Assembly: GCA_013298075.1 (NCBI GenBank)
Contig: JAAFJG010000003.1
Coordinates: 62,001 to 126,000, forward strand
Reading direction: 5' to 3'
Origin: Cytophagales bacterium
Lineage (GTDB): Bacteria; Bacteroidota; Bacteroidia; Cytophagales; Microscillaceae
DNA: 64,000 nucleotides
Every line of letters begins with the position of its first letter. Position 1 is the stretch's first letter. The notes under the pieces are model-generated. The model searched no databases. It saw only the letters and a list, made by a program, of their open reading frames with translations, and was not told the origin of the DNA. Both the position numbers and the translations under genes were made by a program. Positions 14,706 to 30,190 of this stretch are shown in pieces.

Positions 14706-15734
14706 ATGAAAAAAATAGTCTATTTAATCCTTTTTTACTTTATTTCTTCTTTTTCTTGGGCAAATATTGCGATGCCGGGCTTTTTTAATGTAGGGGCAGG
14801 GGCAGGTTTTGTGCCTTATTTTCGAGAAGATAAAATTCATTTAGGAAAAATTCAAATGAAAAGCGAACTGATTACTATTCAATTATATCGCGGATATGCG
14901 GTCGTGAAAGGCGAATATATGATGTATAATCACGATAAAAAAAAGGTAAATATGAAAATTGGTTATCCTGTCAATGGCACTATTTATAACAATAATACAA
15001 ATGCAGTCGTTTTTCAAGATTTATATGAATTTCAAGTCAATATGAATCAAAAAAAATCTGAAATTTCTTTATTTCGTACCGATTCAATCCAAGAATCTTA
15101 TCGTTCTAAACACCTTGAAGGAGTACGAAATTGGTATGTTTGGGAAGGCGAATTTGAGCCTGAAACTATCACTAAAGTAACTGTTTATTTTATTGTCAAT
15201 ACTTCTAATGCGTTTATCAGAAAAGGATATGACAAAAATAATAGTGATGGTTTTTGTTATGTATTAGAATCGGGGGCACCTTGGAAAGATGCCATTGAAA
15301 AAGGAAGAATATTGATAGAATTGAAAGATAATTTGGAATTAAAAGATATTTTAGCTATTTTTCCAAATAATATTTTTAAAACAAAAGGAAAATATCTCGC
15401 TCTTGATTTTGAAAATCTCGAACCAAAACCTGCTGATAATATTATTTTTAGGTTAGAAGATACAAAAAATATGGAAAATAATGATTTTAAAAATATCACT
15501 AAAAATGTTAAAACTTTGTTCGAAAATATTGATACATTAAAGGCAAACGATATTTCATTCAAAGATTCAAAAACAATAGATGCCAAAGATTTTAATATCA
15601 ATCATTCTGCCAAAGGTTTAACTGCCAATTTTTTAACGTTTTTGGCGGTCTATGGTTTGCCTTTGTTTATGGTTGTGATTGGAGTATTTGTAGGTTTGAG
15701 TGCTATTTTTAAAAAGAAAAAAAATGAAATTTAA
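14706..15734 (+). CDS. Signal-peptide protein with C-terminal membrane anchor, unknown function
   Basis: The protein has 342 residues. A signal peptide (1-19, ending SSFSWA) leads to a mostly beta extracytoplasmic region with short GYPVNG and WYVWEGEFEP stretches. A single hydrophobic helix (about 313-335) and a short KKKK tail follow. The fold and the IAMPGFF start recall DUF4424-type envelope proteins, but I cannot confirm that. It is convergent with the next gene and appears monocistronic. Low-complexity A/T sequence precedes the start, with no clear promoter box. Confidence 0.75.
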   Translation: MKKIVYLILFYFISSFSWANIAMPGFFNVGAGAGFVPYFREDKIHLGKIQMKSELITIQLYRGYAVVKGEYMMYNHDKKKVNMKIGYPVNGTIYNNNTNAVVFQDLYEFQVNMNQKKSEISLFRTDSIQESYRSKHLEGVRNWYVWEGEFEPETITKVTVYFIVNTSNAFIRKGYDKNNSDGFCYVLESGAPWKDAIEKGRILIELKDNLELKDILAIFPNNIFKTKGKYLALDFENLEPKPADNIIFRLEDTKNMENNDFKNITKNVKTLFENIDTLKANDISFKDSKTIDAKDFNINHSAKGLTANFLTFLAVYGLPLFMVVIGVFVGLSAIFKKKKNEI

Positions 15735-15928
15735 GAAATATTTCGTTGCTATGTTTGAATAAAAAATGATGTGTGATGATAAATTGCTAAATTTTAATGG
15801 TTTATGGGAAATTATTACGAAGCTAATTTTGTTTATGAATAGCCATTTATTTTCAAAATATAGAAAAAATATCAATTTGAAAAACACAAATATTTCGGCT
15901 AAGAGCCAATGATTGAATTGTATATTAT

Positions 15929-15948
15929 CCTCCAGCTAAATCTGGAGG
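15929..15948. terminator. Hairpin between convergent genes
   Basis: CCTCCAG (15929-15935) pairs with CTGGAGG (15942-15948). Outer GAATTG/CAATTC can extend the stem with a bulge. It lies between the convergent genes ending at 15734 and 16019 and may terminate either. The rest of 15735-16018 shows nothing else. Confidence 0.45.
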
Positions 15949-16018
15949 CAATTCAAAAAATACATTTCAAAAAAATTCATCTCACGCATAAATTTCCTAA
16001 AAACCAAAAAAAAATAAC

Positions 16019-16366
16019 CTATTTTTTATTTTTATGTTGGATACAATAAGCAAAAAAAACGCTTATATAACTCACTAAAAAACTATACGCACCCAACCCA
16101 AGCCTACCTTTCAAGTTTATTATATCTCGAATATAAGGAATAAACCAAATCAACACAAAAATATAGAAAAAAATATGAATGATTTTGATAAATTTGTACG
16201 AAAAAAATACCAATATAAAATTAAGACAACCCACAAAAATAAAAAACTCAACAATAAATAATTCAAATCGTGTAAAAAAAACTTCTGTCGTAATGGCTTT
16301 TCCAAATGGCAAATATATTGCTGCTATCCAACTAATTCCTGCCAATAAAAATAAGATTTTTTTCAT
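16019..16366 (-). CDS. Small four-TM membrane protein, unknown function
   Basis: From the ATG at 16364-16366 the product is 115 residues, beginning MKKILFLLAG. A TTG 12 bp upstream is in frame but overlaps the previous stop and is less likely. Four hydrophobic segments cover nearly the whole length. The previous gene ends 8 bp before this start, so the two probably share a transcript. No enzymatic motif is visible. Confidence 0.65.
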   Translation of the reverse strand: MKKILFLLAGISWIAAIYLPFGKAITTEVFFTRFELFIVEFFIFVGCLNFILVFFSYKFIKIIHIFFYIFVLIWFIPYIRDIINLKGRLGLGAYSFLVSYISVFFAYCIQHKNKK

Positions 16367-16374
16367 ATTTATTT

Positions 16375-16971
16375 TCAAATTCTAAAAAGATAATCACTCA
16401 AATCTTTAAAAGGCAAAACGTTTGTAAACATACTATCGTTATAAAAACTGGCTATAACTTTCAAATACATAGGTTTTCTATCTATTTTTTGGTATTCTAT
16501 CAAAATATTTCCGTATTGTTGATTGCAAATTTGGGCTTCTTTTGCTTGTGCGTGAATGTCAGGTTTTAAATAATATCGTTCATTAATTTCTACCCAATTT
16601 TCTTTTTCTACCCAATTTCGTTCTGCATTTTGGATATAATAATTTTTTGTATTCAATAATTTTTCTTTAAAATCTTCCATCAAACATACTATTTCTTCTT
16701 CTTTGAGTTTATTTTCTGCCATCAAAGCCCAGCCTTCTGCCCCTGTCGAAGTCAATAAGTGCATTTCAAAAGTAGTTTTCAAATCTTTTGATTGTAGAAA
16801 ATAAGTTTGTGCGATATTGCCCAATAATTGTGGTCTTTCTTCACTTTTTTTCCATTTTTCGAATAGATTTTTTTCGTAATTATTTCTGACTAAAATTTCT
16901 TTATGCGTTATTTTTTGAGGATTTTCAGGCGTTCCAAACAAATCTTGCCATAATTTTTCTATAAAATTCAT
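16375..16971 (-). CDS. Conserved-looking cytoplasmic protein, unknown function
   Basis: This 198-residue soluble protein starts MNFIEKLWQDLFGTP and is rich in charged residues and aromatic side chains. It contains EGWALMAENKLKEEEIVCLM near residues 78-97. It has no signal peptide or membrane segment. It is immediately followed by a small four-TM protein gene, suggesting a two-gene operon. I do not recognise a family. Confidence 0.65.
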   Translation of the reverse strand: MNFIEKLWQDLFGTPENPQKITHKEILVRNNYEKNLFEKWKKSEERPQLLGNIAQTYFLQSKDLKTTFEMHLLTSTGAEGWALMAENKLKEEEIVCLMEDFKEKLLNTKNYYIQNAERNWVEKENWVEINERYYLKPDIHAQAKEAQICNQQYGNILIEYQKIDRKPMYLKVIASFYNDSMFTNVLPFKDLSDYLFRI

Positions 16972-17045
16972 TTTATTTTGATTTTAAATATATAATTATT
17001 GAAGTATCAAAGTCGCAAATTATTTATATTTTTTCATATTTTTTC

Positions 17046-17118
17046 TCCTTGGTCTGTGGCACACAGACTGAAATAGCTTAGTAACTTTTATTTCGGTCTG
17101 TGTGCCACAGACCAAGGA
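17046..17118. repeat. Long palindromic intergenic element (30-bp arms)
   Basis: Arms 17046-17075 and 17089-17118 are complementary at 29 of 30 positions, with a 13-nt loop. The arms contain GGTCTGTGGCACACAGAC and its complement, much richer in G/C than the surroundings. It sits between two minus-strand genes and could act as a terminator of the 17151 gene, but its size and composition suggest a dispersed palindromic repeat. Confidence 0.65.
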
Positions 17119-17150
17119 TTAACATAAAAGAAATGTCATTATCAAACTCA

Positions 17151-17900
17151 TTAATGTCTTTTAGTTGGTAAAGAAATCATAAATTCTAATACAACTGCTT
17201 GTCCTGCTCTATTAAAATCATTAGGCATTTTATAACCAAAAATCAAAACGTGATGCCCAATATCTATTTGAACGCCTGAAATTAAAGCTGCTAAATCGTG
17301 ATCACCTGAAAACCAATCTGCTACCAAACTTACGTGTTTGGATAATGGTTGCTCAAAACCTACCATCAAACTGAAAGGTCTTTGTGGTTCCAAACTAAAA
17401 TTACTTTCTTGCAGTAAAACTTTTCTAAATCCAAAACTTTGTTCTGTTCCATAACTTAAACCCGCTGTCAATCGTGTTTTAGTTTTGGGCAATCTAAAAC
17501 TAAAATGGCTGTAAGTCCAAAATCCTACATCTTTTCGGTTTAATGAATATAATAAATTTCCGCCTATTGTTAGTTTACTTTCATATTTATTTTCTTTGCT
17601 TAATTTGAAAACGTGTTTTGCTCCCAAACCAGCCGACATATTTTCTGAACCTTGATTATTTAGGTTATTAAAAGTGGCGGTTAATTCTGTACTTTTTCCA
17701 ATTCCGAAACATAAAAAATTAAAACTATTCCAACTCTTAGGAGTTGACCAAGTATTGACTTGGCTTTCGTGTGTAAATTCTATATGTCCTTTTTCTGCAA
17801 CGTCTGCTGAGGGAATACCTACGATTAAAGATTGTGAATGAAGTGATATATTATAAAAAGAAAGTAAAAAAATTAGTAATAGACTACTATAATAACACAT
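17151..17900 (-). CDS. Outer-membrane beta-barrel protein, unknown function
   Basis: This 249-residue protein has an N-terminal hydrophobic signal (1-22, LLLIFLLSFYNISLHSQ). The beta-barrel-like body has alternating residues, for example LTAGLSYGTEQSFGFRK and LVADWFSGDHDLAALISG. The IGIPSADV-like start and the GDHDL segment resemble small Bacteroidota porin-like proteins, but no transport function can be assigned. It has its own palindrome downstream. The upstream 260 bp hold no recognisable promoter. Confidence 0.65.
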   Translation of the reverse strand: MCYYSSLLLIFLLSFYNISLHSQSLIVGIPSADVAEKGHIEFTHESQVNTWSTPKSWNSFNFLCFGIGKSTELTATFNNLNNQGSENMSAGLGAKHVFKLSKENKYESKLTIGGNLLYSLNRKDVGFWTYSHFSFRLPKTKTRLTAGLSYGTEQSFGFRKVLLQESNFSLEPQRPFSLMVGFEQPLSKHVSLVADWFSGDHDLAALISGVQIDIGHHVLIFGYKMPNDFNRAGQAVVLEFMISLPTKRH

Positions 17901-18113
17901 AAAATTATATATTTTTTAGGAAAACTGAAATTACTATTAAAACTAATAAAATATTAAAATGTTTTGAATAAATATGAAATATTAACAAAAAAGTAATTGG
18001 CTGATGTTTCAAATTGATTGAATAAACCATTAAATATTTTGAAAAAAGATATAAATACAAAATATTATTTTGAAAAATATTAGTTTACAAAAGTAATTTT
18101 GTTTAAATTTAAT

Positions 18114-18146
18114 AAAAACAAACCTAAAAAAATTAGGTTTGTTTTT
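18114..18146 (-). terminator. Rho-independent terminator of the prohibitin-like gene
   Basis: A perfect 14-bp stem (18114-18127 with 18133-18146) and a 5-nt loop lie 16 bp past the stop codon, with T-rich flanks. Confidence 0.85.
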
Positions 18147-18161
18147 ATCGTTGCCTTGACT

Positions 18162-18986
18162 TTATTTTGTATCTTGATTGATAAGAAAAGGAGCTTTTCC
18201 GTCTGTAATAATCACTTTTGTATTCGGAGAAGTTGATAATTTTTCGAATACTCCCAAACTTTTATACTTGATAAGCAATTCAGTTAAGCCTTCAGAAATA
18301 ATTTTTTGGGCATCACGAATCCCTTCTGCTTCTATTTTTTGGCGGTCTGCTTCTTGCCTTTGTTTATCCAATACAAATTTCATCGTTTGTGCTTGTTGTT
18401 CTGCTTCTAATTTTTCCTCGATGGCTTTCGAAAGATTGGCAGGAAGTTGAATACTTTTCAACAATACAGCCTCGACCACAAAACCTCTATCTCCTAAAAT
18501 CTCGGTCATTTTGACTGCAATCGCTTTCTCTATATTTGTTCTTTCAGAAGTGTGTAAATCTTTGGCAAAAAAATGAGAAGTAATATCAGCGGCAGCAGAA
18601 CGCAAAACGCTTAAAATAATGCCTTCTCCAAATCTTAAACCTACTTGTTCAATGACTTGAATAGCATTCTCAGGTTTGATACGAAAAAGAATAGCCAACT
18701 CACAATCTACATTTAGACCTTCTTTTGAAGGTAGTTTTTCTAAAGTAACAGGCATATTGATAGTACGAATTGGTACTTTTAACATTCGAGTTGTAAAAAT
18801 ATTGATGCCATAAAGCCCCGGTTTTAGTGTACCAATTTTTAGTTTCCCAAACCTTTGTTTTACACCAACTTCGCCCGGTCTAATTATCGCACAACTATTA
18901 AAACTAAGGACTAAAATAAGTCCTAAAAACGCAAAAAACATACGAGAATAATACATACTAATCTTTTTAAAAAATGATTTTTTCAT
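18162..18986 (-). CDS. Prohibitin/SPFH (Band 7) family lipoprotein
   Basis: The protein has 274 residues. An N-terminal signal ends in a lipobox-like FNSC with Cys32, so it is probably a lipoprotein. The SPFH domain spans about 35-210 (RPGEVGVKQRFGKLKIGTLKPGLYGI, then the LKSIQLPANLSKAIEEKLEAEQQAQ helix). A coiled coil rich in Gln, Glu and Lys and a short tail follow. Prohibitin-like proteins form membrane rings that scaffold proteases or lipid domains. No NfeD or FtsH partner gene is adjacent, so the partner is unknown. The start is an ATG at 18984-18986. Confidence 0.85.
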   Translation of the reverse strand: MKKSFFKKISMYYSRMFFAFLGLILVLSFNSCAIIRPGEVGVKQRFGKLKIGTLKPGLYGINIFTTRMLKVPIRTINMPVTLEKLPSKEGLNVDCELAILFRIKPENAIQVIEQVGLRFGEGIILSVLRSAAADITSHFFAKDLHTSERTNIEKAIAVKMTEILGDRGFVVEAVLLKSIQLPANLSKAIEEKLEAEQQAQTMKFVLDKQRQEADRQKIEAEGIRDAQKIISEGLTELLIKYKSLGVFEKLSTSPNTKVIITDGKAPFLINQDTK

Positions 18987-19202
18987 ACAATTTGAATAGG
19001 TTTTTGATAACGGTAAAAAATAATTAAAAGTAAGTTAGATAAAATTTGTTATCATTCATTTCGCATAAAAATAACAAATATTTGATACTATTAAAACATC
19101 TTTTTTTTGCAAATAGTTTAATTTTTTACAAAAAAAGTTTTGAAACAACGCTCTTTTTTTACAATCGTTTGCGTTATTTTTTTATTTTTAGTAAAATTAT
19201 CC

Positions 19203-19210
19203 TACCTTTG
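19203..19210 (+). promoter_or_regulatory. Putative -7 box for the DUF1015 gene
   Basis: TACCTTTG followed by CAC lies 20 bp before the ATG, a typical Bacteroidota layout with a short 5' leader. A correctly spaced -33 TTG is not evident. Confidence 0.5.
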
Positions 19211-19230
19211 CACAAAAATAGAAAATTCTA

Positions 19231-20493
19231 ATGGCTGAAATACAATCTTTACGTGCTTGGCAATATAACGATTTTTTAAAAGAAAATCTACAAAATATGA
19301 CTGCTTCGATGTCTGAAACGGTTGCACAACAAAAAAAGGCAATGTTTTATCAACAACCTTTTCATTATTTTCATATTTCTTCTCCTATCGATACTCCTCC
19401 TTATCACAATGCAAAACGTAGAGTAGAAAATTGGAAACTCGATAAAGTAATCGAAAAAGATGCCTTAGATGGAATTTATGTGTATTATCAATATTTTCAT
19501 CTCAAAGAAAATCCTGAAAAAATGTATTGTAGAAAAGGTTTTATTGCTCATATCAAAGCCACAGATTTTTCCGAAAAAATTGTTTTACCTCACGAATTAA
19601 CCATCAAAAGAGCCGTAGAACACCGAATTGCCTTGTTAGAAAATACAGAAATGCACACCATTCCAACACACGCTTTTTATACTGATGAGGCACAAAATTT
19701 GGAAAAATATATGGAAGAATGTATCTCTCACCCAATTTCTGATGTGATTGATGCCAATAATACAAGGCACGTAGTCGGCGTGATTCACGATAGAAAAGTG
19801 ATTGATTTGTTTGTCAAAAATTTAGCAGAAAAACAAGTTTGGATTGCAGATGGGCATCATCGATACGAAAGTAGTTATAAATATGCCAAAATGCAAAAAG
19901 AACAAAATCCAAATCATACAGGAAAAGAATTATATAATTTTCATTTGATGTGGTTTACCAATACAGTTTCGAGTAATTTGGGCGTTTTTCCTACGCATCG
20001 AATTTTACATTCTTTGAAAAATTTTGATGAAAAAGACTTTTTTGATACGATTAGCGAATATTTTAATATCACAGAAACCACGCACACGCACAACAAAGGT
20101 TTAGCACCTACCGAAAATTTGGGTACTTTTTTATTGGTTTTTCTCGAAAAATCGTATTTGGCTACACTCAAAAATGATGCAATACAAAAATTTGCAATAG
20201 ATTTACCTGATGAAGTCAAAAAATTAGATTTAAGTGTTTTGCATTATTTTATGTTAGAAAAAGGATTGGGTTTGCGTGAACAAATGCAATTTGAATACCT
20301 CGATTTTACGCATCAAATTTCTGAATGTTATAAACAAGTGGAGTCAAAAAAAGCACAATTTGCAGTCATTACTCGAAAAGTAACTTTGAAAGAAATCGAA
20401 AGTGTCATTCAAAATGGTTATATTATGCCCGCCAAAACGACTTATTTTTTTCCAAAAGTATTGGGCGGATTGGTTTTTTCATCGGCAAAATAA
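19231..20493 (+). CDS. DUF1015 family protein
   Basis: The protein has 420 residues, normal for the family. The signature IADGHHRYESSYKYA lies near residue 207, and the C-terminus ends in MPAKTTYFFPKVLGGLV, both hallmarks of DUF1015. The family often neighbours serine-pathway genes, but none is present here and the biochemical role is not established. The next gene starts about 75 bp downstream on the same strand and may be co-transcribed. Confidence 0.88.
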   Translation: MAEIQSLRAWQYNDFLKENLQNMTASMSETVAQQKKAMFYQQPFHYFHISSPIDTPPYHNAKRRVENWKLDKVIEKDALDGIYVYYQYFHLKENPEKMYCRKGFIAHIKATDFSEKIVLPHELTIKRAVEHRIALLENTEMHTIPTHAFYTDEAQNLEKYMEECISHPISDVIDANNTRHVVGVIHDRKVIDLFVKNLAEKQVWIADGHHRYESSYKYAKMQKEQNPNHTGKELYNFHLMWFTNTVSSNLGVFPTHRILHSLKNFDEKDFFDTISEYFNITETTHTHNKGLAPTENLGTFLLVFLEKSYLATLKNDAIQKFAIDLPDEVKKLDLSVLHYFMLEKGLGLREQMQFEYLDFTHQISECYKQVESKKAQFAVITRKVTLKEIESVIQNGYIMPAKTTYFFPKVLGGLVFSSAK

Positions 20494-20568
20494 TTTTTTT
20501 ATTTGTATTTTTTTATCATTATTTTAACCTTATTTTTTCAAAAAATTTATCATATTCATAACAATAAA

Positions 20569-21942
20569 ATGCTTCCTCAAAATTTTATCGAGTCTTCAGA
20601 TTTTGGTTTGCCTAAAAAACAACATCAATCATTTTTAAAATCTTTGGACACTTCACCACCCATTTCGATTCGTTTAAATCCATTCAAACCGATTACAGAT
20701 TTTGAAAATTTGGAAAGTGTCGCTTGGGAAACGCAAGGAAAATATTTACCCAAAAGAATTAGTTTTACGACTGATGCAAATTTTTGGTCAGGTGCGTATT
20801 ATGTGCAGGAAGCGAGTTCTATGTTTTTGGGGGAAGTTTTGACGCAAGTTTTACCGATTGATAAAGATTTAAAAATTTTGGATATGTGTGCAGCACCGGG
20901 CGGAAAAAGTACGCATATTTTAAGCCTTTTATCAGAAAATTCTTTTTTGATGAGCAATGAAATCAATCGACAAAGATGCCAAATATTGACCGAAAATCTT
21001 GCTCGATTGGGCAAAGCAAATTATGTTGTTACCAATCAAAGTTCAGAAAATATAGGAAAATGGACGAGTCTTTTTGATGCGATTGTGATCGATGCACCTT
21101 GTTCTGGCGAAGGAATGTTTCGAAAAGATTTGAATAGCAGAGAAGAATGGAGTGCAGAAAATGTGTTGATGTGTGCCGAAAGACAGCAAGATATTTTAAA
21201 TAATATTATTCCTTCTTTGAAAGAAAACGGTTTTTTGATATATAGCACTTGTACTTTTAATACATTAGAAAACGAAAAAAATCTCCAAACCTTATTAAAT
21301 GAAGGTTTTGAAAGTATTCGATTGGTAATTGATAGTGATTGGAATATTACGGAAACAGAAACAAAAATTGATGGAAAAATTTTGTATGGTTATAGATTTT
21401 ATCCACATTTATTGGCAGGCGAAGGTTTTTTTATTAGTTGTTTACAAAAAACGTACAAAGAAAATTCGCAAAGAAAACCAAATCTCAAAAATCCAAATTT
21501 ATTGCCTATTCCACTCAAAAAACAAGATTTTTTAGATATTTGGTTAGAAGATAAAGATAAATCTAAATTTAAGTTATATATTACCCAAAAAAATGATATT
21601 TTTGCCTTACCAATTCAACAAGCAGAAAATATGCACTTGTGGGGCGAAACTTTGGGTGCGTGGCAGGCGGGTATTCGCATCGGCACACGCAAACACGAAG
21701 ATATTGAGCCAGCACCTGAGTTTGCTTTTTCATTAGATTTGAATAAAAATATTCCAAAAATAGCATTAGACTTAGAAAATGCGCTTAATTTTTTACGAAA
21801 AGTTGATATTTCTACGCCTATTCCTGACAAAAAAGGTTGGTATTTAGCCACTTTTAATGGTTTTGGATTGGGCTGGCTCAAAGCATTGCCTAATCGTTGG
21901 AATAATTATTATCCTGCACAATGGAAAATAAAGCATTTGTAG
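20569..21942 (+). CDS. RsmF-like 16S rRNA m5C methyltransferase (NOL1/NOP2/Sun family)
   Basis: From the ATG at 20569 the protein has 457 residues. An upstream TTG at 20503 would add a hydrophobic, unconserved stretch. SAM-binding CAAPGGKS is at 107-114. The two catalytic cysteines lie in DAPCSGEGMFRK (Cys178) and STCTF (Cys228). The C-terminal part (about 300-457) has the PUA/RsmF-C-type region seen in RsmF. The predicted reaction is C5 methylation of a cytosine in the small-subunit rRNA. Which base is modified cannot be told from sequence alone. Confidence 0.88.
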   Translation: MLPQNFIESSDFGLPKKQHQSFLKSLDTSPPISIRLNPFKPITDFENLESVAWETQGKYLPKRISFTTDANFWSGAYYVQEASSMFLGEVLTQVLPIDKDLKILDMCAAPGGKSTHILSLLSENSFLMSNEINRQRCQILTENLARLGKANYVVTNQSSENIGKWTSLFDAIVIDAPCSGEGMFRKDLNSREEWSAENVLMCAERQQDILNNIIPSLKENGFLIYSTCTFNTLENEKNLQTLLNEGFESIRLVIDSDWNITETETKIDGKILYGYRFYPHLLAGEGFFISCLQKTYKENSQRKPNLKNPNLLPIPLKKQDFLDIWLEDKDKSKFKLYITQKNDIFALPIQQAENMHLWGETLGAWQAGIRIGTRKHEDIEPAPEFAFSLDLNKNIPKIALDLENALNFLRKVDISTPIPDKKGWYLATFNGFGLGWLKALPNRWNNYYPAQWKIKHL

Positions 21943-21969
21943 GGTTTGGATAAGAAAATATAAAATTCA

Positions 21970-22030
21970 ATAAAATATTCACAAAAAAACAAAAAATAAA
22001 CAAACTTTTTTTAGATAAATAACGTTATAA
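21970..22030 (+). repeat. 61-bp direct repeat, copy 1
   Basis: Identical over 61 bp to 23134-23194. It ends in AATAACGTTATAA, which contains the palindrome TAACGTTA. A diverged end (ATAACGCTATAAAA) occurs near 26220. The copies flank the dinD unit. Confidence 0.8.
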
Positions 22031-22051
22031 AGTTGTGAGTTTTTTAAACAA

Positions 22052-22112
22052 TGGAGTCGAAAAACTTCAGTTATTGTAAGTTAAAGTAATGTTTTACTTA
22101 GTACTTAAACTA
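22052..22112 (+). promoter_or_regulatory. Shared leader, copy upstream of dinD
   Basis: About 60 bp, including TTCAGTTATTGTAAGTT and the hairpin AAGTAA-TGTT-TTACTT, recurs with about 80% identity at 23788-23846, ahead of the methyltransferase. Placement before both units suggests a common promoter or operator. No standard TAnnTTTG box is visible. Confidence 0.45.
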
Positions 22113-22161
22113 TTTTTTTGAAAAATACTTACGCAAGAATATTTATAAAAAATAAGAAACT

Positions 22162-23016
22162 ATGAAAAAAGAACAAATTGAATCATTATTTGAAAAATTT
22201 GAGTCAGCCAGCCAACTTATTGAAGATGTGGAGTGTTGGAGTGCTAGAGAATTGCAAACTATTTTGGGTTATACCAAGTGGCAAAATTTTGAGTATATTC
22301 TCAATAAAGCCAAAGAAGCCTGTAAAAATGCCGAAATTAGCGTTTCTAACCATTTTACTGAAATCAGTAAAATGGTCGAGTTGGGTAGTAGCTCAAAAAG
22401 AGAAATTGCAGATTTTGCCCTTACTCGTTATGCGTGTTATTTAGTTGCCCAAAACGGAGATTCGAGCAAAACCGAAATTGCCTTTGCCCAAACCTATTTT
22501 GCGGTACAAACTCGCAAACAAGAAATTATCGAACAACGCTTATTAGACAAAGAAAGGGTTTCGGCACGAGAGAAATTAAGTAAATCTGAAAAGAAACTAT
22601 CAGGAATTATTTATGAAAGAGGTGTAGATGAAAAAGGATTTGCCTTGATTCGTTCCAAAGGTGACTCGGCACTTTTTGGTGGGTTTAACACTTCGGAAAT
22701 GAAACACAAATTACAAGTGTCTGACAGCAAGCCTTTAGCTGATTTTTTGCCTACCCTTACTATCAAAGCAAAAGATTTTGCAACCGAACTCACCAGCCAC
22801 AATGTAGTCGAAAAAGACCTCAAAGGAGAGAAAAACATAGCCGAAGAACACATCGATAACAACAAAGCCGTCAGAAAAATATTGTTGGAACGAGGTGTAA
22901 AACCCGAAAATTTGCCTTCTTCTGAGGATATAAACAAAGTGAAAAGGCGTTTGAAAAATGAAGGTAAAAATATAGAAAAAAATGTTAAAAAAATTTCATC
23001 TTCTAAAAATCTATGA
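22162..23016 (+). CDS. dinD: DNA damage-inducible protein D (DinD)
   Basis: The protein has 284 residues, as usual for DinD. The N-terminal region (about 20-110) is Bro-N-like, with WSARELQTILGYTKWQNFEYIL. The family-typical GSSSKREIADFALTRYACYLVAQNGD follows, then YFAVQTRKQE, and ERGVDEKGFALIRSKGD..LFGG in the second half. Escherichia coli DinD is LexA-controlled and inhibits RecA filament activity. Here its stop codon overlaps the ATG of a deleted DUF262-HNH gene. The leader at 22052-22110 resembles that of the methyltransferase gene at 23881. Confidence 0.88.
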   Translation: MKKEQIESLFEKFESASQLIEDVECWSARELQTILGYTKWQNFEYILNKAKEACKNAEISVSNHFTEISKMVELGSSSKREIADFALTRYACYLVAQNGDSSKTEIAFAQTYFAVQTRKQEIIEQRLLDKERVSAREKLSKSEKKLSGIIYERGVDEKGFALIRSKGDSALFGGFNTSEMKHKLQVSDSKPLADFLPTLTIKAKDFATELTSHNVVEKDLKGEKNIAEEHIDNNKAVRKILLERGVKPENLPSSEDINKVKRRLKNEGKNIEKNVKKISSSKNL

Positions 23017-23115
23017 AAATAGAACTCAAAGAAATTACGGCTAAAAATTTTCTTAATTGGTTTAAGTATTAGGTGAAGCATTATTGAAACTAGTTTTTTA
23101 TACTTAAGTCGTCTT
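23013..23115 (+). pseudogene. Deletion scar of a DUF262-HNH nuclease gene
   Basis: Overlapping the dinD stop, ATG at 23013 begins MKIELKEIT, the same nine residues as the intact nuclease at 24939. Twenty-six of its first 28 bases match. The frame then reads AKNFLNWFKY and stops at 23070-23072. From 23061 the DNA matches the intact gene's terminator (26040-26080) at about 33 of 41 positions. An ancestral copy has therefore lost nearly all its body but kept both ends. Confidence 0.7.
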
Positions 23116-23133
23116 GAAAAAAATATAAGTTCG

Positions 23134-23194
23134 ATAAAATATTCACAAAAAAACAAAAAATAAACAAACTTTTTTTAGATAAATAACGTTATAA
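23134..23194 (+). repeat. 61-bp direct repeat, copy 2
   Basis: A perfect copy of 21970-22030, lying just after the dinD unit and before the mobile elements. Spacing between the copies is 1164 bp, so recombination between them would remove exactly the dinD unit. Confidence 0.8.
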
Positions 23195-23198
23195 TTGT

Positions 23199-23315
23199 AA
23201 TATGGCTGACTAATCATAGAGGCTTATAAGATCTAAATATTTAAAAGTATTGAAAAATACCTTAATCATCTTTAAATAGCCTCTTTATGTTAAATCCAAA
23301 ATGTCCCCCATATTG
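23199..23315. mobile_element. Short MITE-like element A
   Basis: About 117 bp with imperfect terminal inverted repeats, AATATGGCTGAC at the left and GTCCCCCATATTG at the right. Its right three-quarters, read in reverse, match the left part of element B at 50963-51177 over about 75 bp. Its left end recurs inverted at 23727-23766. It has no coding capacity and would need a transposase in trans. Confidence 0.65.
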
Positions 23316-23471
23316 AACCATTTTTGGAACTGAAACTTTTTTTGTGCTTTTTTAAGTTTAATTTTGTATTTTTCTTTTAATCGAACTATTTTTGGAATTG
23401 AAATGAGAAAAATCGTACAAAGATATATTTTTCTTTACGTCTTTTAATCGAACCATTTTTGGAATTGAAAT
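23306..23471 (+). CRISPR. Relic CRISPR array: three repeats, two full spacers
   Basis: Full 31-nt repeats lie at 23374-23404 and 23441-23471 (CTTTTAATCGAACYATTTTT then GGAATTGAAAT), differing at one base. A third at 23306-23336 keeps only its last 22 nt, with two changes. Periods are 68 and 67 nt and spacers 37 and 36 nt. The 3' end ATTGAAAT and these lengths are typical of CRISPR repeats. Element A ends exactly at the G where repeat 1 becomes recognisable, and element C begins 34 nt after repeat 3. Insertions therefore seem to have cut the array on both sides. No cas gene is in the window. Confidence 0.75.
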
Positions 23472-23505
23472 ATTATTTTAGATGTAATTTGTGGCATTGA
23501 TATAG

Positions 23506-23728
23506 CCGACCTTCCGCACCCTATTTTTAAAAATGAGTATTATCGTTAAAATTCGAGAATTTATTGGTAAAATCATCTAATAATTTTTATTTTAACAATA
23601 ATCTGAATAAAAATTAATAAATCGGGTAAATTTTCAGATAAATTAAATATATTTTATGCGTAAAATTTTAAATATTTATACATTTTTGAGTAAATACTCT
23701 AAACTGAAAAAAGGGTGCTGAAAGTAGG
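23506..23728. mobile_element. Short MITE-like element C
   Basis: 223 bp with 17-bp terminal inverted repeats (23506-23522 with 23712-23728, 14 of 17 matching, core GCACCCT). Its first 127 bp after the left end recur inverted at 26447-26574. A similar end (CTTTCAGCACCCC) lies alone near 49967. It is non-coding. Confidence 0.65.
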
Positions 23729-23766
23729 TTATAAGCCTCCATGATTAGGTCACCCATTTGTAATTA
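23727..23766. repeat. Isolated end of an element A-like MITE
   Basis: In reverse this reads TGGGTGACCTAATCATGGAG then GCTTATAA, matching the left end of element A. With 23199-23231 it forms an outer inverted repeat around the CRISPR relic and element C, suggesting nested insertion. Confidence 0.5.
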
Positions 23767-23787
23767 AACTAGTATTTTTTCGAATAT

Positions 23788-23846
23788 CAAAGTCAGAAAA
23801 TTTCAGTTATTATAAGTTTAAGTAATATTTTACTTAATACTCAACA
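23788..23846 (+). promoter_or_regulatory. Shared leader, copy upstream of the methyltransferase
   Basis: Matches 22052-22112 (upstream of dinD) at about 80%, with the same AAGTAA/TTACTT hairpin. This is evidence that the two units once shared their 5' region. Confidence 0.45.
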
Positions 23847-23880
23847 TTTTATTTTTTTATACTTAAACCAATTGGGGCAA

Positions 23881-24942
23881 ATGGAAGCAAAATCAAAAAA
23901 CACGAATTTACATAGTGCCAAAACAGGCAAAAAAGACGAATTTTATACCCAACTTACCGATATTGAAAGAGAGTTAAAACATTACAGACATCACTTTAAG
24001 GATAAAGTAGTGTACTGTAATTGTGATGACCCACGTATCAGTAACTTTTTTCATTTTTTTTCTTATAATTTTGAATTTTTGGGGCTAAAAAAACTCATTA
24101 CTACTTGCTACAAAAACCAAAATGCCGACTTATTTAGCGAAAATAAGTCTGAACAAGCTATTTGTATAGAATACAAGAGAGATGCAGAAGGAAAACTTAT
24201 GCCTTATCCAGAGTATATGAAAAGTATTTCTCAAGAAGCTTTATACAAAGGAGATAAAGATAATCCTAATATCCCTAATCCTGAAGATATTGGGATTAAA
24301 AAATTAGAAAAAGATGGCGATTTTCGTAGTCAAGAAAGCATAGAACTTTTGAAACAAGCCGATATTGTGGTTACAAACCCGCCTTTTTCCCTTTTTCGAG
24401 AATACGTAACTCAACTCATTGAATACGATAAAAAGTTTTTGATTGTAGGACATCAAAATGCAATCACTTACAAAGAAGTTTTTAAATTCATCAAAGAAAA
24501 TAAAATATGGTTAGGTGTTGATAACGGTGGTACAAAATGGTTTAGAGTACAAGACCATTATGATATTGCCACAGAAACAAGAAAAAAAGTAGAAAACGGA
24601 CAGCAATATTTTAGTATGGGAAGTGTTGTTTGGTTTACAAATTTGCTACATAAAAAACGCCATGAAGATTTAATTCTTTACAAGACGTACAACCTTGAAG
24701 AATATCCAACCTATGACAATTATGATGCAATAAATGTGGATAAAGTTACTGATATTCCAATGGATTATGCAGGTTTTATGGGAGTTCCTATTACTTTTTT
24801 GGATAAATTCAATCCTGAACAATTTGAAATTATTGGTATGGATAGACCTTTAATAAAAAAAATGACAGGAAAAGTTAGCCGTTTTCGTATTAATGGAAAA
24901 GAATTATATGCTCGAATAATCATCAAAAACAAAAAATTATGA
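23881..24942 (+). CDS. EcoRI-type adenine-specific DNA methyltransferase
   Basis: From the ATG at 23881 the product has 353 residues. A TTG nine bases upstream is also in frame. N-terminal KKDEFYTQLTDIERELKHY, then DDPRISNFFHFF near 49-60 and the catalytic NPPF (Asn166-Phe169, in VVTNPPFSLFREYV), match the EcoRI methylase family, which makes N6-methyladenine. Its stop overlaps the start of the DUF262-HNH gene (ATGA), implying translational coupling. No classic EcoRI-like restriction gene is present. The likely role is self-DNA marking in a restriction-like module. Specificity cannot be predicted. Confidence 0.82.
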   Translation: MEAKSKNTNLHSAKTGKKDEFYTQLTDIERELKHYRHHFKDKVVYCNCDDPRISNFFHFFSYNFEFLGLKKLITTCYKNQNADLFSENKSEQAICIEYKRDAEGKLMPYPEYMKSISQEALYKGDKDNPNIPNPEDIGIKKLEKDGDFRSQESIELLKQADIVVTNPPFSLFREYVTQLIEYDKKFLIVGHQNAITYKEVFKFIKENKIWLGVDNGGTKWFRVQDHYDIATETRKKVENGQQYFSMGSVVWFTNLLHKKRHEDLILYKTYNLEEYPTYDNYDAINVDKVTDIPMDYAGFMGVPITFLDKFNPEQFEIIGMDRPLIKKMTGKVSRFRINGKELYARIIIKNKKL

Positions 24943-26021
24943 AAATAGAACTCAAAGAAATCACAGTTAGAGAACTTGCCAAAGGCTATCAAGATAATGA
25001 AGAGAATGGTGTTGTAGGCTTTGGTGGCAAGTTAGACATTCGCCCGCCCTACCAACGTGAATTTATCTACAAAGACAAACAACGTGAAGCAGTAATTGAT
25101 ACACTTACCAAAAAATTCCCATTGAATGTTATGTATTGGGCAGTTCGTGAAGATGGTAATTATGAAGTGATAGATGGACAACAACGCACTATTTCCTTAT
25201 GTCAATATGTAAACGGAGAGTTTGCTTACTTCTTTAAGTATTTTCATAACCTACAAAAAGACGAAAAAGAAGAAGTTTTAAACTATAAACTAATGGTGTA
25301 TTTGTGCAGCGGCACAGATAGTGAAAAATTAAAATGGTTTCAGACGATAAACATAACAGGCGAAAAATTGACAGAACAAGAATTACGCAATGCGGTTTAT
25401 TCTGGTTCGTGGGTGTCAGATGCCAAACGATATTTTAGTAAGAATGGCTGTGCTGGTTACAACATAGGTAAAGATTACTTAAACGGTTCAGCCATTCGTC
25501 AAGATTATTTGGAAACGACTCTTGAGTGGCTTTCGAAAGGAAATATAGAGGTTTATATGTCAAATCACCAACAAGACCCCAACGCCAACGAAATTTGGTT
25601 GTATTTTCAAAGTGTGATTAATTGGGTAAAAGTTACGTTTCCAAAATACCACAAAGAGATGAAAGGTATTGCTTGGGGTTTTCTTTATAACGAGTTCAAG
25701 AATGCAAAACTTGACCACAAAAAATTAGAAATTGAAGTAGCCAAACTAATGCAAGACGAAGACGTAACGAGTAAAAAAGGAATTTACGAATACGTTTTGA
25801 CAGGTAAAGACAAGCACTTGAATATCAGGGCATTTTCGGACAATCAAAAACGAGAAGCATACGAAAAACAAAATGGAATGTGTGTAGTTTGTAAAAAACA
25901 GTTTGAGATTAATGAAATGGAAGCCGATCATATAACACCTTGGCACAGTGGTGGCAAAACAAGTGCGGAAAATTGCCAAATGTTATGCAGAGAAGACAAT
26001 AGACGAAAATCGGGGAAATAG
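24939..26021 (+). CDS. DUF262 (GmrSD/ParB-like) protein with C-terminal HNH nuclease
   Basis: The protein has 360 residues. The DUF262 domain (about 5-230) carries RPPYQRE (35-41) and IDGQQRT (78-84), the motif pair of GmrS/ParB-like nucleotide-using domains. The C-terminal HNH finger (about 313-357) has CVVC (Cys315/Cys318), ADHITPWH with His331, Asn345, Cys350 and Asn354. This layout is found in DUF262-HNH nucleases related to type IV GmrSD enzymes. Its ATG overlaps the methyltransferase stop. Inference: it is the DNA-cutting half of a two-gene defence module. Whether it cuts unmodified or modified DNA is open. Confidence 0.85.
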   Translation: MKIELKEITVRELAKGYQDNEENGVVGFGGKLDIRPPYQREFIYKDKQREAVIDTLTKKFPLNVMYWAVREDGNYEVIDGQQRTISLCQYVNGEFAYFFKYFHNLQKDEKEEVLNYKLMVYLCSGTDSEKLKWFQTINITGEKLTEQELRNAVYSGSWVSDAKRYFSKNGCAGYNIGKDYLNGSAIRQDYLETTLEWLSKGNIEVYMSNHQQDPNANEIWLYFQSVINWVKVTFPKYHKEMKGIAWGFLYNEFKNAKLDHKKLEIEVAKLMQDEDVTSKKGIYEYVLTGKDKHLNIRAFSDNQKREAYEKQNGMCVVCKKQFEINEMEADHITPWHSGGKTSAENCQMLCREDNRRKSGK

Positions 26022-26028
26022 AACACTA

Positions 26029-26077
26029 AAAAAACTGATTTAAGTATCAAGGAAAGAATTACTTAAACCAGTTTTTT
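26029..26077 (+). terminator. Terminator of the methyltransferase-nuclease unit
   Basis: Arms 26029-26046 and 26060-26077 pair at 17 of 18 positions, ending in six T. A diverged copy follows the deletion scar after dinD (23061-23101). Confidence 0.75.
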
Positions 26078-26446
26078 ATCTAAGCCTGATTTGTAGAAAA
26101 TAATCACACTTCTTTGATTTATGCATAATAGTTCTAAATTATTAAAAAAAATCATTAAGACTCACGGAATAAAGCATATTTTACTCTTTTCAACCAAAAA
26201 AGTGGTGTTTTAGTATTACATAACGCTATAAAATCGCAATTTTTCAAGCTAAAATATTCAATTTTATAATTATTTTTTGTATCTATTTTTATATTTATTA
26301 TGAAAAATCATATAAAAAGATGCTAATCACAGAATAAACATAGTTTTAAATATTATTTTTTTCAAAACTAAACTTTATTTTATAAAAATATAATAGTATT
26401 TTATTGTAATTTTTCAGTTCCTACGTTCTCTAAAACGGGAAGTTAC

Positions 26447-26574
26447 GGTTTAATTTGTCTAAAAATTTACTCGATTGATAAATTTCTACTCGGATTATTG
26501 TTAAAATAAAATTTATTAGATAATTTTACCAATAAATTTTCGAATTTTAATGATAATACTCATTTTTAAAAATA
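26447..26574. mobile_element. Partial inverted copy of element C
   Basis: The reverse complement matches 23522-23648 closely, but the GCACCCT terminus is missing, so it is a truncated copy. With element C it forms an inverted pair around the methyltransferase-nuclease operon. The remaining spacer 26078-26446 shows only A/T-rich sequence and ATAACGCTATAAAA near 26220, a diverged end of the 61-bp repeat. Confidence 0.6.
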
Positions 26575-26656
26575 CAGTTCAAGAAGTTTTTTCAAATAAA
26601 AAGAAATTATTTTTTGTTGATAACATTGGAATATTATCAAATCAAAACAACAAAAA

Positions 26657-26684
26657 TAGCCCACAAAAAATATTTTGCAGGCTA
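26657..26684 (-). terminator. Terminator of the ribosomal protein supercluster
   Basis: Arms 26657-26668 and 26673-26684 pair with two mismatches or wobbles. In the minus direction the stem is followed by TTTTTGTTGTTTT. It lies 26 bp after the rplQ stop. Confidence 0.7.
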
Positions 26685-26709
26685 AAATTTATTTTTAAAG
26701 AAATAAGAA

Positions 26710-27198
26710 TTATTCTTTTACTTCTTCTTCCACCAAGTCAGTAGTTGTTATTACAGTTGTATCTTCATCAGATTTAGCACCTTTTTTACGACTTCTACGA
26801 GTTTTTGCTTTTTGTTCGCCTTCATTCGCTACGTAAGTTGTATTAAAATCTACTAATTCCATCATACACATGTCTGCATTATCACCCAATCTTGTTCCAA
26901 TTCGAACAATACGAGTGAAACCACCGTTTCTTGTAGCAATTTTATCAGCTACTTTATCAAAAAGTTCTTTTACAGACGCTTTGTCTTGTAAATAAGAAAA
27001 GACAACGCGACGTGATTGCATTGTATTTTCCTTTGATTTGTTCAAGAGAGGCTCTGCATATTTGCGTAACGCTTTTGCTTTTGCGACTGTCGTGATGATG
27101 CGTTTGTGCAAAATCAAAGACGAAGTCATATTCGAAAGCATAGCCTTACGGTGTGTTGCGGTGCGTCCTAAATGATTAAAACCTTTACCGTGTCTCAT
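26710..27198 (-). CDS. rplQ: 50S ribosomal protein L17
   Basis: The protein has 162 residues. The L17 core ([21 protein letters not shown]) occupies about 1-120. It is followed by a charged tail typical of Bacteroidota: basic [11 protein letters not shown], then acidic to the end (EEEVKE). It is the last gene of the supercluster, 48 bp after rpoA. L17 binds 23S rRNA near the tunnel exit. Confidence 0.96.
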
Positions 27199-27246
27199 TA
27201 TTTTAAATATTTTATCAGAAGTTGAATTTTATTTCACTTCTATTTT

Positions 27247-28236
27247 TTAATCTTCATCAAGTTTATACTTAGAAACATCCATTCCAAAATGCAACTGTTT
27301 ATCAGAAACTAATTGCTCTAATTCGGTCAAAGATTTTTTACCGAAATTACGGAATTTCATCATATCGTCAATGTCTAACTTTACCAAATCGCCCAAACAT
27401 CTGATGTCCGCAGACTTCAAACAATTATAAGCACGTACAGAAAGGTCTAAATCGGTAATAGTGGTTTTCAAAAGTTTACGCATGTGTAAATAATGCTCAT
27501 CAACTTCCTCAACTTCTTCACGTTTAGCGGTTTCAATCATAATGTTCTGGTCAGAGAACAATAAGAAATGTTGAATTAGGATTTTAGCAGCTCCTTTCAA
27601 AGCGTCTTCTGGATGAATGCAACCATCAGTTTCTATATCCAAAATCAATTTTTCATAATCGGTACGTTGTTCTACGCGAGTATTTTCGATACTATATTTT
27701 ACATTTTTGATGGGTGTATGAATAGAATCTATAGCAATATACCCCATAGATTTATCTTCTTTATTATTTTCCTCAGATGGAACATAACCTCTCCCCTTTC
27801 CAATGCAAATTTCGATTTCAATCTCAACGCTTTCTTCCAAATCACAAATCACTAAATCAGGATTTAATATTTGAAAAGATTCACTAAATTGAGAAATATC
27901 CCCCGCTGTAAAAACATCTTGGTTTTGTATTCTCACCACGATTCTGTCCTCTTCATTTTCGGAAACCTTTTTAAAGCGAACTTGTTTTAGGTTCAGAATA
28001 ATATCGGATACATCTTGCACAACGCCTTTTATAGATGAAAATTCGTGCAATACGCCCGGCATTCTAACCGCAGTAATAGCATAACCTTCCAAAGAAGATA
28101 ACAATACTCTACGAATAGCATTACCAACAGTAACACCAAATCCTTTTTCTAAAGGTTTGAACTCAAATGTGCCATGAAATTCCGTTGCTTTTTCCATCAA
28201 CACTTTATCAGGCATTTGAAATGATAATAACGACAT
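27247..28236 (-). CDS. rpoA: DNA-directed RNA polymerase subunit alpha
   Basis: A 329-residue protein of normal length. The N-terminal domain (about 1-230) contains [21 protein letters not shown]-type assembly sequence (here [18 protein letters not shown]) for dimerisation and beta/beta' binding. The C-terminal domain (about 255-329) has [16 protein letters not shown] and [12 protein letters not shown] for UP-element DNA and activator contacts. It is preceded by a 119-bp gap holding a 14-bp hairpin, the largest gap in this part of the cluster. Confidence 0.97.
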
Positions 28237-28294
28237 ATTTTTTCGAGTTAAAAATTATTTATCGGATGTATAATTACGTAAAAAGTAATAAAAC

Positions 28295-28342
28295 AACTTT
28301 TATGAAATTAATATTTGTTAAAAATAATATTTCATAAAAGTT
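28295..28342. promoter_or_regulatory. Hairpin between rpsD and rpoA
   Basis: 14-bp perfect arms (28295-28308 with 28329-28342) and a 20-nt loop lie in the only long gap between rpsD and rpoA. It has no adjoining U-run in the minus direction, so it could be a processing site, attenuator or protein-binding site rather than a terminator. Confidence 0.4.
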
Positions 28343-28355
28343 ATTCCATTTATTA

Positions 28356-28961
28356 TTATTTAGAGTACAACTCAACTATGCGTTGTACATTAATATTTTC
28401 AGGTATTTGGTCACGGTCAGGGTACATTATAAATTTACCAGACATTTGAGCGCCATCCCACTCCAACCAATTGAACTTTCGAACATTTGATGCAGTAAGA
28501 CTTTTAGTAATAATTTCTAATGATTTTGACTTTTCGCGTACAGAAACAATATCACCTGCTTTCATAGAATAAGATGATATATTTACTACGCCTCCATTAA
28601 CCAAAATATGTTTATGTAATACTAATTGACGGGCACCACGTCTTGTAGGTGCGATACCCATTCTATAAACCGTATTATCTAAACGGGCTTCCAAAAATTT
28701 CAACAAGTTGTCGCCAGTAACGCCTTCTTTTGAGGCTGCTTTGCGAAACAAGTTAGAGAATTGACGCTCTAACACGCCATAAGTATATTTGGCTTTTTGT
28801 TTTTCTGCCAATTGGACTGCATACTCCGATAATTTACGGCGTTTACCTTTTCCGTGTTGTCCAGGGGCGTAATTTTTACGTTTTACTGCCTCTTGATAAC
28901 CTAAGATTGGTTCACCGAATCGACGAGAGATTTTTGCTCTTGGTCCTGTGTATCTTGCCAT
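28356..28961 (-). CDS. rpsD: 30S ribosomal protein S4
   Basis: The protein has 201 residues, starting [18 protein letters not shown]. The S4 RNA-binding domain is near 93-155 ([31 protein letters not shown]). It has no N-terminal zinc cysteines, so it is a zinc-free S4. S4 nucleates 30S assembly and in other bacteria represses the alpha operon by binding its mRNA. Such control is not shown here. Confidence 0.97.
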
Positions 28962-29018
28962 TTTTTTCTACAAGAATTTTTTTTAAAGGTGAAATAAATT
29001 TTCAGCCCAAACTATGCT

Positions 29019-29411
29019 CTATACGCGGCGACGTTTGGGAGGGCGACATCCATTGTGAGGTAACGGCGTTACATCACGGATTGTCGTAACTTCGATGTTG
29101 CAAGTTTGTAATGTACGAATAGCAGACTCGCGTCCTGCACCAGGTCCTTTCACAAACACTTCTACTTTGCGTAAACCCAATTCGTGTGCCACTTCTGCAC
29201 AATTTTTAGCGGCAACTTGAGCAGCATAAGGGGTATTTTTTTTAGAGCCTTTGAAGCCCATTTTTCCCGCAGATGCCCAAGAAATCACTTGACCATTGAT
29301 GTTTGTAAGCGAAATAATGATGTTGTTGAAAGAAGCCCTGATATGTGCTTGACCTACCGCTTCTACTACTACTACACGCTTCTTTGCTTTGTCTTTTCTT
29401 TTTTGAGCCAT
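29019..29411 (-). CDS. rpsK: 30S ribosomal protein S11
   Basis: The protein has 130 residues. The conserved core [12 protein letters not shown] and the C-terminal [23 protein letters not shown] leave no doubt. S11 forms part of the 30S platform near the E site. It lies between rpsM and rpsD in the usual alpha-operon order, 47 bp after rpsM. Confidence 0.97.
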
Positions 29412-29458
29412 GACTACAAATAAATTTGAACAAATTGTTAAATAATCTCAACAGGAGA

Positions 29459-29836
29459 TTATTTCGTTGCTTTTTTCTTATTAGGAACAGTTTTACGTTT
29501 ACCTTTACGAGTACGAGTATTGTTTTTCGTTCTCTGACCACGTACTGGTAAACCTTTACGGTGACGAACACCACGGTAACAACCGATGTCCATTAAGCGT
29601 TTGATGCTTAATTGTACTTCCGATTTTAATTGACCTTCTACTTTATAGTCAGTACCAATAATATTACGGACAGCACTAATTTCGCTATCAGTCCACTCAC
29701 TTACTTTTTTATCCACAGAAATTTCTGCTTTTTTTAAGATAGTTTGAGCGGCACTTCTTCCTATACCAAAAATATAGGTGAGGCTGATTAGACCTCTTTT
29801 TTTGTCTGGGATATCAACCCCTGCGATACGAGCCAT
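29459..29836 (-). CDS. rpsM: 30S ribosomal protein S13
   Basis: The protein has 125 residues, beginning [19 protein letters not shown]. The helix-two-turn-helix core is followed by [26 protein letters not shown], whose basic tail contacts tRNA in the P site. It forms head bridges to the 50S subunit. Confidence 0.97.
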
Positions 29837-29841
29837 AGTTA

Positions 29842-29958
29842 TTAACCTTGTCTTTGTTTATACCTTGGATTTTTTTTGTTAATCACGTACAGTTTGCCCT
29901 TGCGTTTGATTATTTTGCAATCGACACTGCGTTTTTTAATTGATGTTTTTACTTTCAT
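29842..29958 (-). CDS. rpmJ: 50S ribosomal protein L36
   Basis: The correct start is the ATG at 29956-29958, giving 38 residues from MKVKTSIKK to [10 protein letters not shown]. Longer in-frame starts would overlap infA. Of the zinc ligands in C+ L36, only Cys14 remains. Positions 11 and 27 are Ser and Asn and the His is Tyr, so this is a zinc-free form, common in Bacteroidota. Confidence 0.95.
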
Positions 29959-29971
29959 AATAACCAAAAGT

Positions 29972-30190
29972 TTATTTATAACGGTAAACGATCCTTGCTT
30001 TAGATAAATCATAAGGAGACATTTCAAGCCTTACCTTATCACCGGGTAAAATTTTTATATAATTCATACGCATTTTACCCGAAATATGTGCGATGACCTG
30101 ATGTCCATTTTCCAATTCAGCTCTAAACATTGCATTAGAAAGAGCCTCTAAAATTGTACCGTCTAGTTCTAACGATGCTTGCTTTGCCAT
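29972..30190 (-). CDS. infA: Translation initiation factor IF-1
   Basis: A 72-residue S1-like OB fold with [28 protein letters not shown] and [36 protein letters not shown]. It occupies the ribosomal A site during initiation. It lies 3 bp after map and 13 bp before rpmJ, the conserved map-infA-rpmJ order. Confidence 0.97.

Follow-up and report, generated by a model that had tools for sequence, protein, structure and literature searches.

The direct repeat around dinD of a Cytophagales bacterium belongs to a dispersed intergenic family with a promoter-like core

The 61-nt direct repeat around dinD in a Cytophagales genome consists of two members of a dispersed repeat family, which is beyond chance. 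Judged from nucleotide sequence, the repeat probably represents the head of a gene unit and carries a promoter core that would be recognized by an alternative sigma factor, probably of the ECF class, and that has been multiplied as well as locally duplicated. The core would comprise an A-tract, a -35-like AAAC(T)5-6, 16–17 nt and a -10-like AAYGTT. Transcription of dinD and of the methylase gene of the neighbouring unit would start a few nucleotides past the core and, in tailed copies, pass through the three hairpins. Copying of the core, often together with the ~95-nt tail, would have generated dozens of intergenic copies, and a local duplication would have provided two tandem units (dinD; methylase and HNH nuclease) with sister core and tail sequences. 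If the core is indeed a multiplied alternative-sigma promoter, one genome ties many accessory genes, some of them defence-like, to one signal, and the regulation of horizontally gained defence genes becomes directly testable. The repeat is interesting as regulation and ordinary as recombination, which corrects the tempting view that repeats flanking defence genes are attachment sites.

Organization of the dinD locus

The window, i.e. the whole stretch of 64,000 nt analysed, is part of a 4.71-Mb genome (G000; 153 contigs, 97.9 % complete). In agreement with the preliminary description, both repeat copies (Table 1) are identical over 61 nt and share the 3' end AATAACGTTATAA. The 61 nt are the maximal exact match, which can be extended to 68 nt at 97 % identity. 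A diverged third end (ATAACGCTATAA), previously placed near 26220, was rejected as a repeat copy: the best core scores between 26100 and 26300 against the family matrix are -19 bits (+ strand) and -23 bits (- strand). The second unit does contain a recurring element, namely copy 2's own hairpin tail. The proposal that the repeats bound each cassette holds in that one copy heads each of two units, both of which close with an inverted terminal hairpin (H3); dinD appears flanked because both tandem units start with their own core and tail.

Table 1 Features of the dinD locus (window coordinates)
Feature	Position	Strand	Remarks
rsmF	20503-21942		upstream of repeat copy 1
Repeat copy 1, A-tract and promoter-like core	21963-22030	+	61-nt perfect part 21970-22030
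Copy 1 -35-like box AAACTTTTTT	22002-22011	+	
Copy 1 -10-like box AACGTTAT	22021-22028	+	
Hairpin tail of copy 1, decayed	22040-22131	+	H3 at 22080-22113
dinD (DNA damage-inducible protein D), 284 aa	22162-23016	+	Pfam Bro-N; NCBIfam NF008573 equivalog, 345 bits, cut-off 242
39-nt stretch, 87 % identical to GmrSD/HNH gene start (24931-24969)	23005-23043	+	overlaps dinD end
Inverted terminal hairpin H3 after dinD	23057-23090	-	
Repeat copy 2, head of second unit	23127-23194	+	perfect part 23134-23194; motif 23166-23190
Other repeats between copy 2 and its own tail	23195-23774	.	dispersed 23233-23316, CRISPR-like 23312-23471, ~226-nt 23503-23731
Tail of copy 2	23775-23865	+	H3 at 23816-23849; sister of tail 1
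EcoRI-like adenine methylase, 356 aa from TTG (ATG at 23881)	23872-24942	+	Pfam PF13651, E 1.5e-132
GmrSD_N and HNH nuclease, 360 aa	24939-26021	+	Pfam PF03235, PF01844
Inverted terminal hairpin H3 after HNH gene	26035-26068	-	

The two tails of the window are sisters, aligning locally with a score of 81 where 300 shuffles reach at most 37, and among 45 family copies each of its two cores finds its best match in the other; the duplicated item was therefore the head of core and tail (~170 nt), one per unit. The 580 nt that hold other repeats would have come between copy 2 and its tail by insertion, and these repeats have copies in C99, C92, C12, C68, C110, C79 and elsewhere in C77. Among them, three ~30-nt repeats (YTTTTAATCGAACYATTTTTGGAATTGAAAY) at 67-nt spacing resemble a short CRISPR array, with relatives at C97:29893-30013 and in C221 and C39 of the congeneric genome G001. 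The ~226-nt repeat has copies of ~94 % identity in C99, C92 and C12 and of 88 % in C68, and an inverted partial copy lies downstream of the HNH gene (26449-26574). Elsewhere in the window (17046-17118), a strong 30-nt inverted repeat (TCCTTGGTCTGTGGCACACAGACTGAAATA) is located between genes, similar text occurring beside cores in C94 and C123.

The 39-nt stretch at the end of dinD reads as a remnant of a GmrSD/HNH gene start. Since dinD ends on this stretch, the upstream unit may formerly have been a second methylase-HNH unit, the contents of which were replaced. Derivation of the stretch from an ancestral methylase-dinD-HNH operon was rejected: 172 relatives of dinD were found (66–76 % identity, under many phylum names), and among the 80 loci retained, none has a methylase match and two have an HNH/GmrSD match (E ≤ 1e-5) beside dinD. 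Beyond the methylase and GmrSD/HNH unit follow the genes for L17 and rpoA. The empty site of the window is unreadable, because the gene after L17 differs in the two congeneric genomes G001 and G002; the rsmF contig of G001 stops 1.2 kb past the gene.

The repeat family in the source genome

A genome-wide search for further copies, as suggested in the preliminary description, yielded at least 41 matches to the 68-mer in G000 (E ≤ 1e-3), a lower bound because 40 of 468 first-look candidates were scored. Their neighbours are housekeeping as well as many nuclease- or defence-like genes. Forty of the 41 matched copies could be anchored on AAYGTT; the core weight matrix built from them finds 45 sites above 18 bits in the 422 kb around the matches, as against none in the control (one base-shuffled copy, one strand scanned). 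The family consensus is AAAAAACAAAAAATAAACAAACTTTTTTYAGATAAATAAYGTTATAA and the core motif AAACTTTTTT-N9/10-AAYGTTAT. Matrix and pattern combined give 61 sites in the examined parts of the genome, 60 of which are located outside genes of >100 aa. The ~95-nt tail is present at 25 sites (two by loose text match) and not adjacent to the other 36, a group that includes window copy 2 and C94, their tails being further off. The tail alone has at least 41 matches in G000 (40 of 85 candidates scored). At C46:18989-19070, two oppositely oriented cores overlap at AACGTT.

As far as searched, the many intergenic copies are restricted to this species or its kin, the distribution of BOX-type repeats. Neither genome_contigs nor viral_contigs, scanned without the own genome, contains a sequence matching the exact core pattern. 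Of 18 other genomes, 9 give matches to the 68-mer, all of them weak and short (best E 5.5e-6). The tail was compared with 12 further genomes of the bacterial family and is unmatched in 11; the remaining one, G002, has three weak tail matches which on inspection represent a divergent hairpin relative.

A recombination or attachment function had been considered refutable if the repeat were common in unrelated intergenic DNA; this is what the 61 sites reveal, and copies also adjoin genes for MlaE, GidB, SiaC, enolase and nucleotidyl-transferase. Attachment sites of an integron or of another tyrosine recombinase, with crossover in the TAACGTTA palindrome, are accordingly highly improbable. The palindromic core, the short spacing between copies in places and the opposite-orientation pair sharing AACGTT (C46:18989/19023) would suit such sites. 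However, tailed copies stay conserved for ~100 nt past one end of the palindrome, most copies stand alone over a distance of 4 kb, and the palindrome corresponds to the -10-like half in a motif that resembles a promoter and precedes other genes in congeners. An attC-like tandem array was not found, no contig having three successive copies at steps of <4 kb (contig breaks limit this view). A search of G000 for recombinases of the Phage_integrase family retrieved no more than two proteins. They reach 57–117 bits against integron-integrase model cut-offs of 265 and 435 and match XerD and XerC best, likewise below the cut-offs (XerD 326.8 of 329.6). The attachment-site reading was rejected on the grounds that, within this family, only these XerC/XerD-like proteins and no integron integrase were found.

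Hairpin tail and terminal hairpin

Many core copies are followed by the tail with its three hairpins. In an alignment of 32 core and tail sequences (mean identity 65 %), 91.5 % of cells in the three hairpins pair. Covariation is evident from 25 two-sided cells versus 12.7 in shuffled alignments (sd 2.6; 0 of 500 as high), slid structures giving at most 8. Folding of eight single tails resulted in z-scores from -2.7 to +0.4, three of them below -2; window tail 1 (22031-22125) folds no better than shuffles (z +0.4). Rfam has no match at gathering thresholds within 15000-30000.

H3 also occurs without tail. Of 12 such hairpins within 110 nt of a gene 3' end, 11 share one orientation, the CAGTTGG end facing the gene (hand count), a call that is soft because H3 is nearly palindromic; a T-run as in a terminator accompanies only 3 of the 12. 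A general terminator role of H3 was rejected, T5 following 19 of 52 hairpins in the forward and 4 of 52 in the reverse sense. Inverted hairpins on both sides characterize the dinD unit, the methylase-HNH unit and units in C99, C91, C68, C94, C98 and C11. Given the shared orientation of H3 at gene 3' ends, several units thus sit between inverted hairpins in the fashion of mobile cassettes.

That the units are mobile cassettes bounded by inverted terminal hairpins, with core and tail as a long left end which happens to carry a promoter, is nevertheless unlikely. Besides the hairpin arrangement, varied and often nuclease- or defence-like cargo (by Pfam) is in line with this explanation, as is the methylase-HNH pair of G001, which lies between perfect 43-nt direct repeats. 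Close core pairs are also in excess (9 among 45 copies; 1.66 expected, at most 7 in 2000 uniform placements), although the uniform model ignores gene density; only three of the nine (C77, C91, C143) consist of partners each placed first or second in the ranking of the other, so most are not fresh local duplications. Within the loci and protein families covered, neither a target duplication nor an empty site nor a matching transposase was found, and a promoter would fit both the tail-less cores next to housekeeping genes and the motif matches in congeners. The 43-nt repeat of G001 (L204 7147-7189 and 9405-9447) holds a TAnnTTTG housekeeping-type box, and a 26-nt part of it has no other exact copy in the loci examined. 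Together with the orientation of H3, it hints that gene units and promoters were duplicated together.

A bolder and distinctly unlikely variant is a self-spreading expression cassette, in which a stress-responsive sigma promoter and a hairpin leader, closed by the inverted last hairpin, would accept different defence genes. New defence genes would then enter a DNA-damage or stress regulon on arrival, perhaps together with uvrB, ssb and recO.

Position relative to genes and spacing of the motif

Interpretation of the core as a promoter agrees with the placement of tail-less sites. For 35 of the 36, the next gene is within the examined sequence; 30 point into that gene and 5 face its end, and in 18 of the 35 the gene starts no more than 120 nt away. 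Of 20,000 intergenic points chosen at random, 54.7 % point into the next gene and 22 % are as close to its start; for an unrelated REP-type repeat, the corresponding counts are 20 and 4 among 51 copies. Biases in strand and distance are each significant at p of about 1e-4, the controls being drawn from 48 larger loci and the repeat copies being non-independent by shared descent. Tailed sites have no strand bias (15 on the same strand as the next gene, 9 on the opposite, 1 without next gene); therefore, many of them cannot serve the adjacent gene as promoter. A same-strand position just upstream of genes is hence a property of tail-less cores and not of core and tail sites.

The REP-type repeat used as control is tied to a Y1 transposase, has 51 matches in 560 kb and differs from the 61-nt repeat family. 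At L067 (C82:24206-24577 and flanks), a single Y1 (RAYT-like) transposase is located between inverted REP-type repeats with the hairpin CCTCCAGATTTATTTGGAGG.

The pattern AAACTTTTTN{8,12}AAYGTT has 51 matches in G000 versus 23 for the reversed-pattern control. By hand count, spacing between both boxes is N10 in 37, N9 in 11 and N11 in 3 matches, N8 and N12 being absent; two-box spacing is thus nearly fixed (48 of 51 at N9/N10). The prevalence of N10 in this genome is weak evidence, because most N10 matches are copies by descent. The motif is found 28 nt before the TTG-started recO frame and also before genes with GmrSD_N, PDDEXK_2, AAA_21 and AAA-ATPase_like domains. Overall, neighbours of the repeat are varied, often nuclease- or defence-like by Pfam, and include housekeeping genes. 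At E ≤ 1e-10, PADLOC matched 229 models among 109 element-adjacent genes versus 100 among 109 control genes (sampled from 115 genes >2.5 kb from any element). No tested defence enrichment is claimed, since these counts refer to models rather than proteins and defence genes are present in the control set as well.

The motif in congeneric genomes

In G001 and G002, 11 of 12 motif matches have N9/N10 spacing (one-sided p 3e-4 for an even spread), while raw counts are no higher than with the reversed pattern used as control (9 versus 12 in G001; 3 versus 6 in G002). Nine of the 11 are followed by a same-strand reading frame 29–168 nt downstream, the other two having none near. The motif is located 32 nt upstream of uvrB in G001 and 47 nt upstream of ssb in G002, each seen in one genome only. 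It precedes both members of two orthologous pairs: rhomboid genes (72 % identical; 89 nt in G001, 36 nt in G002) and a G001 gene with its 86 %-identical G000 orthologue (43 and 15 nt, respectively). Motif matches in more distant genomes, of which 20 of those listed were inspected, give a mixed picture and were excluded from the evidence. In two other genera, the motif occurs before IscA/SufA-like frames at L288 and L300 (G009, 70 nt; G034, 155 nt), named by reading the translated starts.

These matches also bear on the idea of a BOX- or MITE-like interspersed repeat that is neutral, owes its spread to some transposase and lacks a promoter role. Such a repeat would account for the modular build, the hairpins, the expansion limited to G000 as far as searched and the lack of strand bias at core and tail sites. 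It is very unlikely in view of the strand and distance biases of tail-less cores, the motif spacing kept in congeners and the motif before two orthologous gene pairs.

Relation to Bacteroidota sigma factors

ECF sigma promoters usually consist of a -35 AAC and a -10 CGTT separated by 16–17 nt. According to the accessible parts of the respective reports, a second promoter type of B. thetaiotaomicron (PM2) has boxes at -30 and -10, with TGTT near -10, is enriched before oxidative-stress genes and is tied to ECF sigma factors (PMC7366714, PMC12596196), and the motif of P. gingivalis SigP, another ECF factor of Bacteroidota, differs from the core (PMC4800418, as partly available). By analogy, the core may be said to fit the description of the Bacteroides -30/-10 "TGTT" promoter. 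No interspersed intergenic hairpin repeat with a promoter was found in the literature searched on Bacteroidetes, and none of the matches listed for defence genes with direct repeats in Bacteroidota was relevant, judged from the excerpts at hand.

Comparison with known systems

Chromosomal integrons with defence cassettes harbour short gene units separated by related sequences, which is also the appearance of the window. In contrast to integrons, no integron integrase was found, copies are mostly isolated and the repeat is located at the unit head. Mobile insertion cassettes carry passenger genes between inverted ends in the absence of a transposase, as do the units of the window; unlike in those cassettes, left and right ends of these units are unequal and mobility is putative. 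Promoter-carrying MITEs such as the Correia elements are short non-coding repeats able to bring signals next to genes. The present repeat is likewise short, non-coding and capable of placing signals beside genes, whereas a terminal inverted repeat with target duplication, as in Correia-type MITEs, is not evident here.

The pneumococcal BOX, RUP and SPRITE repeats, as far as described in the available part of the source (PMC3049150), resemble the repeat in being hairpin-rich, intergenic and largely confined to one species and its close kin; they differ in that the present core is promoter-like and has matches before orthologous genes in congeners. Compared by description rather than by logo, and within the portions of the PM2 reports at hand (PMC7366714, PMC12596196), the core departs from PM2 by the T-run after AAAC on the -35 side and by being embedded in a multiplied repeat. 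Both share boxes at about -30 and -10 with TGTT or CGTT in the -10 box, are not of the TAnnTTTG housekeeping type and stand before scattered genes.
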